From assembly GCF_000756815.1 (NCBI RefSeq), contig NZ_CCVW01000001.1:1478001-1542000 (forward strand): 64,000 nucleotides of DNA, written 5' to 3'. The notes beneath the pieces are model-generated. The model was given only the letters and a program-made list of their open reading frames with translations, was not told the origin of the DNA and did no database searches. Origin of the DNA: Legionella massiliensis (GTDB lineage: Bacteria > Pseudomonadota > Gammaproteobacteria > Legionellales > Legionellaceae). Below are positions 24,064 through 42,309 of the stretch, piece by piece; the first letter of the stretch is position 1; every line of letters starts with the position of its first letter. A program made the translations under genes and the position numbers.

Positions 24064-25200
24064 TTAATGAAGGGTCGAACTACGATTATCCATCTCAGCC
24101 AATACAATCGCCATGGCTGCATTTATTTTGTCAGCGACAGCAGGAAAGGTTTGGTTAAACTGTTTTCCGGCTTCATCCGGGTCGCTATGCTGAGAGACGA
24201 TAATCCGAGCAATATCTGCTAAAAAGCAATGAGAATCTAGATCCTTCGCTTTTTTAATCATAGTCGTTGCCTTCTGTATCTCTCCGCGCAAGGCATAAAC
24301 GAGAGCCAGACCACCCCAGCTTTCTGGGCTTTCTTCATAGATCTGAATCGCTTGTTTATAACTATTTTCTGCTTCAGAAAGCTTATCAAGAAATAGCTGG
24401 CACCAGCCTAAGCTTATCCAGTTATCACAAAACAGAGGTTCTAGCTCAGCGGCTTTTAGGAAGGCTTCTTCTGCACTATGCAGGCTAAGTTCACGTAGAT
24501 GAATTGTCCCTAAGGCAAACCATAAGCGGGCGTCCTTGGTTTCTTTAGCCAATAATTTATTAATTTGCTCGAGGGTTGCATCACCATCAGTTAGATGCAG
24601 AAGAATCCTTAAAATCTGTGCTTCATAATTGTTTGGCGATATTACTAAGGCTTGTTTAGCGGCGTCATCTGCTAATTCAACTTCATTGCCATCAAAATAA
24701 AGCTGAGCAAGCAAAGCCAGGGCTTCACCTGATTGCCCATGATTTTCAATGGTTGTTTCCAAGGATTTTACCGCCTCATCAAGCCTATTACTTTGGTGTA
24801 ATAATTTGGCCATAAGCAATTCGACCTCATAGGTTGAGCTGCCATGTGCTAGCAAGGGACTTAAGACTTCTATGCCTTTGTTAATTTCCTGCAGGGAATA
24901 ATAGCAAACTGCCAAACCATAACGCAGAATAGGTAAGTCCTCCTTCAACAACGCTTTATGAAGTGCATCCTTCGCCTCCTCAAAATGGCCTAAGTTGAGA
25001 TCAATGATGCCTTGTTGGGCAAAACAGCCTTCACTGTCAATTTTTTTTGCTTTATCAAGATAAAGTTGTGCTGAGGCAAAATCACCTAATTGACGGTAAC
25101 TATCGCTAACAGAAAGTAGGAGATTAAAATTGTTAGGATCTTGCTCAAGGAAATGGAGATATTGAGTTAATTTTTCTTTACTGTCGTTGCTGATGTCCAT
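24064..25200 (-). CDS. TPR-repeat protein at the end of the flagellar-type cluster
   Basis: 378 residues, about ten tetratricopeptide helix pairs (for example LLLSVSDSYRQLGDFASAQLYLDKA, cut into 34-residue units). No signal peptide or membrane helix. It lies 47 bp after fliP on the same strand, in an operon where all genes are nearly overlapping, so it is probably co-transcribed. TPR proteins commonly serve as chaperones or sorting scaffolds in type III secretion; such a role here is inference. No standard flagellar gene of this size and type is known to me at the end of a fliMNOP string. Confidence 0.75.
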   Translation of the reverse strand: MDISNDSKEKLTQYLHFLEQDPNNFNLLLSVSDSYRQLGDFASAQLYLDKAKKIDSEGCFAQQGIIDLNLGHFEEAKDALHKALLKEDLPILRYGLAVCYYSLQEINKGIEVLSPLLAHGSSTYEVELLMAKLLHQSNRLDEAVKSLETTIENHGQSGEALALLAQLYFDGNEVELADDAAKQALVISPNNYEAQILRILLHLTDGDATLEQINKLLAKETKDARLWFALGTIHLRELSLHSAEEAFLKAAELEPLFCDNWISLGWCQLFLDKLSEAENSYKQAIQIYEESPESWGGLALVYALRGEIQKATTMIKKAKDLDSHCFLADIARIIVSQHSDPDEAGKQFNQTFPAVADKINAAMAIVLAEMDNRSSTLH

Positions 25201-25247
25201 TTAGAATTCTCTTTTATATAAATCATTAAGGATTATAGGTCTTAAGC

Positions 25248-25973
25248 TCATTGAAAACTACCTACCAATGCTTGAATAACCATATCCCAGCCATCAATAA
25301 GCACAAAAAGTAGAATTTTGATGGGCAAGGAAATGGTCATCGGGGGGACCATCATCATGCCCATAGTCATCAGTATGCCTGAAACAATCAGATCAACTAA
25401 GAGAAAGGGTAAAAAAATCATAAACCCTATCTGAAAAGCAGTCTGTAATTCACTCAGTAAAAAAGCAGGAATCAGTTGATACAATTTTATCTCTTTTGCG
25501 GTTGTTGGCGGAGGAGCATTGGCCAATTGTAAGATTGTTTGTAAATCTTTTTCTCTTGTTTGCCGCAGCATAAATTGTTTAAGAGGTGCTTTTGCCTTGG
25601 CGAGGGCTGTTTCTGTGTTGATCTGTTTTTCTTGATAGGGTTTATAGGCTTGGCTGTAGATAATTTTGATAACAGGCATCATGGTAAACAGTGTCAGAAA
25701 AAGGGCGAGGCTAATGAGAATTGTATTCGGCGGCGTTTGCTGCAAGCCCAGGGCATTTCGTAGCATGGATAAAACGACAACAATTCGGGTAAAGGATGAA
25801 AGCATAATTAACAGGCTTGGCGCCATGCTGACTAAGGTTAGGCTAATAAAAACTTGCAATAGTGGTGAAATATTCTCTTGATCCACATGAATCCCACCCC
25901 AAGTCAGCCCGCTAGCAGAGGCGAGACAAAGAGAGGGTAAGCCGATTAGGCAAAGAACTATAAAGTATCGCAT
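25248..25973 (-). CDS. fliP: FliP, export-gate protein
   Basis: 241 residues. Core of the flagellar type III export gate (FliP5-FliQ4-FliR1). Cleavable-type signal (MRYFIVLCLIGLPSLCLAS), then the conserved LTLVSMAPSLLIMLSSFTRIVVVLS region, and C-terminal MMMVPPMTISLPIKILLFVLIDGW, both FliP/SctR signatures. Size matches the family (about 245). It overlaps fliO by 16 bp. The presence of the N-terminal signal makes it a flagellar FliP rather than an injectisome SctR. Confidence 0.95.
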   Translation of the reverse strand: MRYFIVLCLIGLPSLCLASASGLTWGGIHVDQENISPLLQVFISLTLVSMAPSLLIMLSSFTRIVVVLSMLRNALGLQQTPPNTILISLALFLTLFTMMPVIKIIYSQAYKPYQEKQINTETALAKAKAPLKQFMLRQTREKDLQTILQLANAPPPTTAKEIKLYQLIPAFLLSELQTAFQIGFMIFLPFLLVDLIVSGILMTMGMMMVPPMTISLPIKILLFVLIDGWDMVIQALVGSFQ

Positions 25974-26290
25974 TTCAATTTCTCTGTTGTTAGGGCATGT
26001 AAGGCCAAAGCTTGTTGACTATCAGCAAGAAGAAATTGCTGATTTTGATATTCAAGAATGTAAATTGTGGTTTTGTTGCCTAAGTGCTTTTTATCGACGA
26101 TGAGGCAGGAAGACTGGGTTTGTCGGGGTTTTTTAGCAAGGAAAATGGCAAGGGCAATAAGTGCTGCAAGGGTAATCAAATAGATAAACCAGCCCTGCTT
26201 GGGTTCTATGGCTTGCTTAAAGTGAAGGTCCTCAGCCAGGGCTTTATTCGATACTAGGGAGGCAAGGAGGATATTAACGATTTTCCTCAT
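25958..26290 (-). CDS. fliO: FliO, export-gate assembly factor
   Basis: 110 residues. Short N-terminal hydrophobic signal-like stretch, one TM helix (YLITLAALIALAIFLAKK), then a small cytoplasmic domain (CLIVDKKHLGNKTTIYILEY, with the FliO-type 'G-x-x-x-x-L-x-x-x-x-x-x-L' pattern). FliO helps FliP hexamer assembly and is specific to flagellar systems, absent from virulence injectisomes. Sequence conservation in this family is low; the call leans on position between fliN and fliP. Overlaps fliN by 4 bp (ATGA). Confidence 0.85.
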   Translation of the reverse strand: MRKIVNILLASLVSNKALAEDLHFKQAIEPKQGWFIYLITLAALIALAIFLAKKPRQTQSSCLIVDKKHLGNKTTIYILEYQNQQFLLADSQQALALHALTTEKLKCDTL

Positions 26291-41195: not shown

Positions 41196-41947
41196 GCCAT
41201 AACCCCGCGCCAGCTTTGAAAACAGATTCTGAATAAGCGTTCTAGCAAGGGATTAAAGTAATTTAGTAATAAAGCCAGTAGAAAAAAACCAAAGAGAATT
41301 TTAATCTGTAAGGTTAGGAAATAGGTGCTGAGTTGAGGCATATTGCGGGTCAGGATAGCCGCAGAGATCTCAATAACCAGCAAGGCAATAACGATAGGGC
41401 TGGCAATCATTAATGCGAGGCTAAACATTAGGGAAAATTGCTGGATAAGCAGCATAAATCCTTTAAACAGTGCAAGCCTCCCTGGCGGAATAGTTTGAAA
41501 AGAATAAGCCAAACCCTGTATTAACCAATGGTGGCAGTTTAAGGAGAAAAAGAATAAAACGGCGAGCATAGTCAAAAGACGACCTGTAAATGGGTCCGCA
41601 GACTGGGAGCTGGGGTTCAAAATAGCCAGCGAATTAAGGCCGGTTTGCGTATCAATTAGCTGTCCGGCAATCTGCAAAACTGCAAAGGCTGCATAGAGAC
41701 TCATCGATAAGGTCAGGCCATTAGCAAACTCGACTAAGGCACCAGCTATCAAGGTTGCTTCATCATGTTTTTGCACCGATAAGGATAGATTTGAAACTAA
41801 AAGAATACTGAGACTGAAGACGAGTAGAAGCCGTACATGGATTGGCAACTGACGAATTGCTTGAATTGGCGTAAAAAGTAAAACGGCCCCTAGTCGTATA
41901 GCAACGAAAAAGATAGCGGTCAGTGTTGGCAGGCTTAGATTAATCAT
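41192..41947 (-). CDS. fliR: FliR, export-gate protein
   Basis: 251 residues, about six TM segments. Conserved GAVLLFTPIQA near the N-terminus and RLLLVFSLSILL are FliR-type, and the AGQLIDTQTGLNSLAILNP block (key GQ-ID-Q-GL) is a FliR/SctT signature. It completes the FliPQR export channel. Overlaps fliQ and flhB by 4 bp. Confidence 0.95.
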   Translation of the reverse strand: MINLSLPTLTAIFFVAIRLGAVLLFTPIQAIRQLPIHVRLLLVFSLSILLVSNLSLSVQKHDEATLIAGALVEFANGLTLSMSLYAAFAVLQIAGQLIDTQTGLNSLAILNPSSQSADPFTGRLLTMLAVLFFFSLNCHHWLIQGLAYSFQTIPPGRLALFKGFMLLIQQFSLMFSLALMIASPIVIALLVIEISAAILTRNMPQLSTYFLTLQIKILFGFFLLALLLNYFNPLLERLFRICFQSWRGVMA

Positions 41948-42213
41948 CGCAAAGCCCCAGGGATGTTTTCTATGATGTTTTTTGCAAAATCAAGAAGGGT
42001 ATGCAGCATCCAACTGCCACAAAGCATTAGCATGAGTGTAAGAGTCAATAATTTGGGGACAAAACTTAAACTGGAATCTTGAATTTGAGTGGCAACTTGC
42101 AGGATAGAAATTAACAGGCCACAGAGCATGGCAGTTAATACAACCGGCGAGGATATCAATAGCGCATGCCAAAGCAATTGCTTCGATAAATAGATAGCTA
42201 GATCGTTAGACAT
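41944..42213 (-). CDS. fliQ: FliQ, export-gate protein
   Basis: About 89 residues from ATG 42213 (the open frame extends to 42309, but the extra part is not conserved). Two TM helices: LLWHALLISSPVVLTAMLCGLLISILQ and LLTLTLMLMLCGSWM (key segments SSPVVL and GLLISILQVATQIQD), followed by LSFVPKLLT, the FliQ/SctS signature. First gene of the cluster in reading order. Confidence 0.94.
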   Translation of the reverse strand: MSNDLAIYLSKQLLWHALLISSPVVLTAMLCGLLISILQVATQIQDSSLSFVPKLLTLTLMLMLCGSWMLHTLLDFAKNIIENIPGALR

Positions 42214-42280
42214 CATCCATTTTCCATGTATGTAGAGCTTACTTGCGGTCTTCCGTGGGGAAATCCATAAAACGGAGGAG

Positions 42281-42309
42281 ATTAGAGCAAATCTTAAAAT
42301 GATTTTCAA
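42281..42309 (-). promoter_or_regulatory. Candidate sigma-70 promoter upstream of fliQ
   Basis: On the minus strand TTGAAA (42309-42304), a 17-bp spacer and TCTAAT (42286-42281), ~68 bp before the fliQ start. No sigma-28 or sigma-54 motif was seen in the gap. If real, the cluster would be read from a housekeeping promoter rather than by the flagellar cascade. Confidence 0.5.

Follow-up and report, generated by a model that had tools for sequence, protein, structure and literature searches.

A hook-ended flagellar-type secretion cluster of Legionella massiliensis without motor genes, and its candidate cargo of giant RHS proteins

A fourth flagellar region has been described in Legionella fallonii and Legionella micdadei (PMC4256840), and PFS2, an extra region with basal body, secretion system and hook genes and without flaA or fliD, in several Legionella species; the account of PFS2 does not decide between a second flagellum and a type III secretion system (PMC5655016). 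In the non-flagellated Lysobacter enzymogenes OH11, genes resembling a flagellar type III secretion system (FT3SS) export foreign flagellin, export is abolished by deletion of flhB or fliI, and no native substrate is named (PMC7277350). Secretion of the hook-cap protein FlgD has been reported in Lysobacter, where fliD, fliC, flgK, flgL, flgB, fliE, fliG, fliM, motA and motB are listed as lost (PMC9927559). Here we analyse a cluster of 24 minus-strand open reading frames (ORFs) at positions 24064-42309 of a 64,000-nt stretch (the window) of the Legionella massiliensis genome (4.38 Mb, 8 contigs). Judged by the textual description of PFS2, the cluster appears to correspond to those loci. It shares with the Lysobacter FT3SS, which has been shown able to export, the combination of an export gate and an ATPase with no FliG, filament or stators, and three Lysobacter genomes other than OH11 fit its FlhA clade and gene order. 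Our favoured reading, held with moderate confidence, is that it encodes a flagellar type III system, motorless and ending at the hook, through which giant RHS polymorphic toxins are exported. The accounts of PFS2 are confined to Legionella, whereas a wider family, a single clade, a short FliG-like protein and a link to RHS proteins are added here. Our literature search found no flagellar-type export route for RHS proteins and no description of the hook-ended family, with subscription papers and preprints mostly outside its coverage; as far as it reached, the joining of the PFS2 and FT3SS pieces and the naming of RHS substrates are new.

The cluster shares with the bacterial flagellum the FlhAB-FliPQR gate, FliHI, the MS ring, rod, LP ring and hook, and the Pfam/NCBIfam matches place export gate, MS ring, rod, LP ring and hook all within it. 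It differs from the flagellum in its own gene order, in short FlgD and FliM proteins and in lacking a full FliG and the genes for filament, junction and stator; no scanned cluster protein had a Pfam match to families of these three parts. The FliG_C domain (PF01706) of motile flagella is not in the cluster and occurs at most once per genome in 22 other cluster-bearing genomes. FlhA scores 713 bits with the FlhA model and 553 with the SctV model of injectisomes, both below the equivalog cut-offs, so the protein is judged flagellar in type yet divergent.

An FlhA search of genome contigs, from which the best 80 loci were retained (canonical FlhA loci included), revealed relatives of the cluster in many genera. 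Among these 80, at least 14 Legionellaceae loci have 64-78% FlhA identity, and loci of Dyella, Rhodanobacter, Oleiagrimonas, Lysobacter, Pseudoxanthomonas, Xanthomonas arboricola, Kangiella, Microbulbifer, Pseudoalteromonas, Catenovulum, Grimontia, Arsukibacterium, Hahella and other assemblies have 46-54%. Mapping was carried out for 58 loci, 38 from this search and 20 extensions of genomes among them, and every one is collinear with the window order for core genes scoring at least 45 bits. An earlier sequence-only reading of the window had taken this order to be unlike any familiar arrangement, which cannot be upheld given these loci and the arrangement already noted in Legionella (PMC4256840, PMC5655016). 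No gene of the 58 loci has E. coli FliG, FliC, FliD, FliS, FliL, FlgJ, FlgK, FlgL, FlgM, MotA, MotB or CheA as its best match at 1e-3. A relative of the TPR (tetratricopeptide repeat) protein of the window is encoded next to fliQ in 25/27 non-Legionella loci, and a FliA-like sigma gene adjoins fliP in 13/16 non-Legionella loci; the sigma gene was not found in the four Legionella loci that extend to fliP. Kangiella sp. HZ709 carries a hook-ended cluster (L020, L133), at odds with a 2026 survey that describes free-living Kangiellales as devoid of any flagellar genes (PMC13063649).

The link to RHS proteins comes from several non-Legionella genera, in which giant RHS-repeat proteins adjoin the cluster and share one N-terminal domain that has no obvious Sec signal. 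A first profile of this domain, A1, with six rows from six of the 23 cluster genomes then searched, finds it in 22 of them, including L. massiliensis and all four other Legionella. A second profile, A2, has 16 rows, one of them from L. massiliensis. Among 23 fresh cluster genomes, none of which was the source of a row, A2 finds the domain in 19, in 16 of these at 98 bits or more. As a control, 369 gammaproteobacterial genomes were drawn by class. Family-level FlhA (>1030 bits; next score 764) is present in four, L. massiliensis and three others, from four families, and A2 matches of at least 98 bits occur in exactly those four and in none of the 365 others (Fisher 1.3e-9); if weaker matches are counted as well, the comparison is 4/4 against 8/365 (p 6.5e-7). 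These p values are guides only, because the L. massiliensis genome contributed a row to A2 and the genomes are not independent draws. Within 18 Legionellaceae genomes, the domain is found in 13/15 with the cluster and in 0/3 without it.

Physical linkage and partner genes point the same way outside Legionella. In 11/23 genomes an RHS gene and the family fliP are at most 25 kb apart; six of the 11 had been preselected for linkage and five had not. Two genomes of the class sample (G243, G287) have RHS and family FlhA on one contig, and in a third (G323) the FlhA contig carries just a partial match, which scores 43.6 bits and lies at a contig end. A ~125-aa protein, detected with a profile built partly from the same loci, is encoded in 19/27 non-Legionella loci, and in X. 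arboricola it and a small TPR protein stand beside the RHS gene on a contig other than that of the cluster. Small TPR proteins are typical type III chaperones. A sigma-28-like site is found 80-98 nt upstream of 9/32 RHS starts, in Xanthomonadales and one Microbulbifer, a count that is partly circular as the refined motif was derived from three of the scored sites; outside this distance range, p 0.02 is attained at two additional starts, with the site at 63 and 147 nt. The canonical sigma-28 score is mostly background in the upstream regions of both the cluster operons and the Legionella RHS loci.

In L. massiliensis the RHS N-terminus lies at 946872-947300 of contig C2, in a frame of 3810 aa, and the cluster is on another contig. 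The 3807-aa protein contains a LysM domain at 3081-3130 besides its 20 RHS stretches. Upstream of the RHS gene, all five Legionella loci have a gene for a 537-548-aa protein, which has a signal-like start in the two cases examined and weak Ig matches in the one scanned; downstream, 4/5 have a gene for a 157-165-aa protein. Among the five Legionella RHS copies, mean identity drops from 0.48-0.63 in the first 3500 columns to 0.29-0.34 beyond them. RHS repeats with a variable C-terminal end, features shared with the RHS polymorphic toxins, thus suggest the usual picture of such a toxin; the proposed cargo differs from known RHS toxins in a shared N-terminal domain tied to the hook-ended machine. 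On C2, just beyond the RHS gene and the small gene that follows it, a transposase-like insertion-sequence ORF pair was seen by eye (L207:4077-5266). Elsewhere, G019 has a single 8582-aa open frame with two copies of the RHS N-terminal domain (C29:19959-28286), and in the class sample eight genomes of 1.0-2.6 Mb (G122, G114, G304, G026, G197, G330, G051 and G046; loci L230-L237) have giant RHS-like frames with a divergent version of this N-terminal motif.

Under the favoured reading, the cluster would build a motorless, hook-ended basal body that acts as a dedicated type III secretion channel. The short FliG-like protein X would sit on the short FliF tail and carry a reduced FliM/FliN platform, which would feed the export gate and generate no torque. 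A giant RHS protein, with its shared N-terminal domain and variable C-terminal end, would then pass unfolded through rod and hook; in L. massiliensis this cargo would be the 3807-aa protein encoded on C2. Outside Legionella, the small TPR and ~125-aa proteins are probably RHS chaperones, and the FliA-like sigma factor probably drives RHS as a late gene. Linkage, co-occurrence and partner genes make RHS a rather better than even candidate for the main cargo.

Several observations weigh against this assignment. The domain is not exclusive to the hook-ended machine, since 8/365 cluster-free genomes carry a weaker version over much of its length at 48-87 bits, six of these eight having no FlhA match; at E 0.001, 15/365 cluster-free genomes pass. 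A1 does not find the domain in G008, which has a complete set, and A2 misses it in four fresh genomes, L010, L021, L029 and L030, all of them metagenome-assembled. None of the five Legionella genomes checked has the RHS gene on the contig of the cluster, neither the sigma gene nor either of the small partners was seen at the Legionella loci examined, and the sigma-28-like site is absent at 4/5 Legionella RHS loci. The FT3SS-like genes of OH11 are described as not forming an operon (PMC7277350). The export of RHS proteins by the hook-ended machine is itself something we infer from sequence. The strongest alternative, which we consider possible but doubtful, is a real non-motile machine with another cargo, such as small effectors, surface proteins or hook subunits, in which case RHS would share its ecology or regulon and would exit through a different system, which in Legionella might be the Dot/Icm type IV system. 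The N-domain relatives in genomes without an FlhA match and the lack of physical RHS-cluster linkage in Legionella would fit such a machine, as would the commonly known export of RHS proteins through other systems (cf. PMC3482391). Set against this, the top RHS scorers among 369 genomes are exactly the cluster genomes, the domain recurs in most of the fresh cluster genomes, five genomes that were not preselected show linkage, and partner genes are shared. The distribution in Legionellaceae also argues for a tie to the cluster, which a Dot/Icm cargo need not follow.

Whatever its cargo, that the cluster specifies a non-motile flagellar-type machine of one family is a conclusion in which we have high confidence. 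In a tree of 95 FlhA sequences made by a quick method (45 family, 48 canonical and 2 injectisome), the 45 family sequences form one group with an SH-aLRT of 100 and a stem of 0.69, and the canonical FlhA proteins of L. massiliensis and 12 other cluster genomes group with other gammaproteobacterial canonical rows. Family FlhA stands apart from the two injectisome rows. The method warns of long branches for these rows and, within the family, for Grimontia, Hahella and Kangiella, and the placement of the family relative to the injectisome rows is not to be read from this tree. A family FlhA profile likewise separates the two kinds, with family members at 842 bits or more and others at 791 or less.

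A second swimming flagellum, borrowing FliG, stators and filament from a canonical set, is very improbable. The parts it would borrow do exist in L. massiliensis, and the terminal helix of the cluster FliF is kept. The genome has two FlhA genes, one on contig C3 and one in the window; its single FliG is on C3, where alone PF01706 matches; two Flagellin_N matches on C3 represent a FliC-like gene and an FlgL-like gene with FlgK adjoining; and MotA/MotB genes lie on C3 and C1. What the cluster lacks is thus part of a canonical flagellum whose genes lie at other sites in the genome, and the hook-ended cluster is a second machine. The absence of filament and motor genes claimed by the sequence-only reading thus holds for the cluster and fails for the genome, and the genome search for fliC, motA, motB, fliG, flgK and flgL that it had set as a test turned up a complete-looking canonical set, which is one half of the outcome it had named as refuting its proposal, the other half being normal swimming by this structure. 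Against borrowing stand the 22 further cluster-bearing genomes reached through mapped loci: FliP is found in 22/22, FliG_C in 12, with one copy each, and Flagellin_N in the same 12. The other ten, a Tatlockia metagenome-assembled genome (MAG), Legionella maceachernii, Kangiella, three Microbulbifer, Oleiagrimonas and three Lysobacter, have neither. Two of the ten are MAGs (Tatlockia and one Lysobacter); draft gaps are unlikely as a general cause because the two markers agree. The cluster also has its own FliG-like gene in the FliG slot, and FlgK, FlgL and FliD had no match in the 58 loci. It was mainly the ten genomes without FliG and flagellin that led us to reject a swimming role, and these, with the absence of FliG_C, filament, junction and stator genes from the cluster, bear out the initial proposal of a flagellum-derived export machine that does not serve swimming.

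Even less credible is a flagellar remnant in decay, stripped of filament and motor, a view that has been expressed for Lysobacter. The absence of filament, junction, stator and full FliG genes would suit decay, as would the autocleavage site of the window FlhB (40146-41195), NPTR where 19/19 relatives compared have NPTH. However, all mapped loci, from many genera, lack the same parts and keep the order intact, family FlhA forms one clade separate from the canonical copies in the genomes that carry it, and the open frames of the cluster are intact; the FlhA tree together with the common order and absences led us to reject this reading. Two Lysobacter loci analysed here carry a FliE match and X, so some of the Lysobacter genes listed as lost may have been overlooked by similarity search. 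An injectisome, with which the cluster shares secretion without motility, reduced switch-ring homologues and a small protein at the FliG/SctK position, was rejected on the FlhA-type gate and the rod, LP ring and hook genes, with no secretin or needle among the family matches.

The slot between fliF and fliH, where FliG would be expected and had been reported absent, has no FliG_C domain and is occupied by X (144 aa; 32078-32512), less than half the length of FliG. The window X matches a profile of non-Legionella X at 1.5e-6, and this profile in turn matches FliG of known structure at 9.2e-5; the predicted fold of Rhodanobacter X also matches FliG. The profile-profile comparison of X with FliG is weak, and the predicted model of Legionella X alone matched no FliG fold, which weighs against the assignment in this genus. 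X is probably a mini-FliG in Xanthomonadales and, with less assurance, in Legionella. The adjacent FliF (431 aa; 32505-33800, PF01514 and PF08345) has a short cytoplasmic tail that terminates in a helix bearing a conserved Trp.

The 24 genes, all on the minus strand, follow the transcription order fliQ-fliR-flhB-flhA-flgF-flgG-flgH-flgI-flgB-flgC-fliE-fliF-X-fliH-fliI-fliJ-fliK-flgD-flgE-fliM-fliN-fliO-fliP-tpr. All 24 ORFs listed at the outset are present and 19/23 junctions overlap, by 1-31 bp, as had been stated; the four gaps are fliP/tpr (47 bp), flgD/flgE (236 bp), flgI/flgB (147 bp) and fliE/fliF (1 bp). Of the gene names first proposed, 19 have a usable Pfam/NCBIfam match (FliP, FliN, FliM, FlgE, FlgD, FliI, FliH, FliF, FliE, FlgC, FlgB, FlgI, FlgH, FlgG, FlgF, FlhA, FlhB, FliR and FliQ), as does the TPR protein; FliO falls below the cut-off, and FliJ and FliK, which like X have no usable match in Pfam or NCBIfam, are named by position only. 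FlhA, FlhB, FliR and FlgB score under their NCBIfam equivalog cut-offs.

The export gate comprises fliQ (41944-42309; TIGR01402 above cut-off), fliR (41192-41947; TIGR01400, 158.8 bits against a cut-off of 168.6), the switch protein gene flhB (TIGR00328, 309 bits against 349), flhA (38155-40149; placed by its model scores and the family clade) and fliP (25248-25973; PF00813). The fliQ ORF as listed begins ~31 codons early, relatives being mostly 84-95 aa, and its true start is probably near 42216. Rod proteins are encoded by flgF (37431-38180) and flgG (36662-37438), both named by Pfam and synteny, flgB (34511-34837; PF00460, with TIGR01396 slightly below cut-off) and flgC (34092-34514; PF06429), with fliE (33802-34095; PF02049) for the rod base; flgH (36100-36678; PF02107) and flgI (34985-36100; PF02119) encode the L and P rings. 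The ATPase regulator fliH (31444-32085; PF02108) and the export ATPase fliI (30156-31451; PF00006 and PF18269) precede fliJ (29747-30163) and fliK (29115-29777), the latter a putative hook length ruler. They are followed by the hook cap gene flgD (28741-29118), whose match covers the N-terminal domain only (PF03963), and the hook gene flgE (27278-28504; Pfam hook domains, FlgEFG subfamily above cut-off). The fliM-like gene (230 aa; 26589-27281) matches in the C-terminal SpoA domain only (PF01052, 29.4 bits) and is followed by fliN (26287-26592; PF01052), fliO (25958-26290; PF04347, 17.5 bits against a cut-off of 22, and position) and the gene of the 378-aa TPR protein (24064-25200; Pfam TPR) at the far end, beyond fliP.

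Two similar imperfect inverted repeats (28590-28685 and 34882-34948) fill two of the operon gaps and look like a dispersed repeat; a guessed repeat pattern gave no matches. One Legionella subclade and many other genera have a FlgA-like gene that separates flgG from flgH (for example L014:13453-14349), and there is none at this junction (36662-36678) in the window or in L004, L006, L008 and L012, the relatives closest to it. Adjoining the cluster, a 619-aa ORF (22168-24027, minus strand) is a serine protease by appearance; its N-terminus crosses a repeat-like stretch, so its start is doubtful. In two other Legionella genomes the cluster is closely followed by large ORFs, with lengths of 1278, 1000 and 1059 aa (L127:2586-6422, L130:13718-19999).

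Taken at its broadest, the family could be a third type III branch beside flagella and injectisomes, a motorless hook-basal body of gammaproteobacteria with a mini-FliG, dedicated to giant RHS toxins (open frames of ~3,700 to >7,000 aa) and, outside Legionella, with its own late sigma factor; it would account for PFS2 in Legionella as well as for the flagellar genes that non-flagellated Lysobacter carries, and we regard the case for it as evenly balanced. The question of whether PFS2 is a second flagellum or a secretion system is answered as far as sequence allows, and the 'lost flagellum' of Lysobacter is recast as a likely member of a separate machine. A candidate native cargo is named for a system already shown to export. 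If the proposal is true, RHS proteins of thousands of residues would pass rod and hook, and these are, to our knowledge, far larger than known type III substrates. A natural motorless flagellar base with a FliG under half length would also be useful for work on the divergence of flagella and injectisomes.

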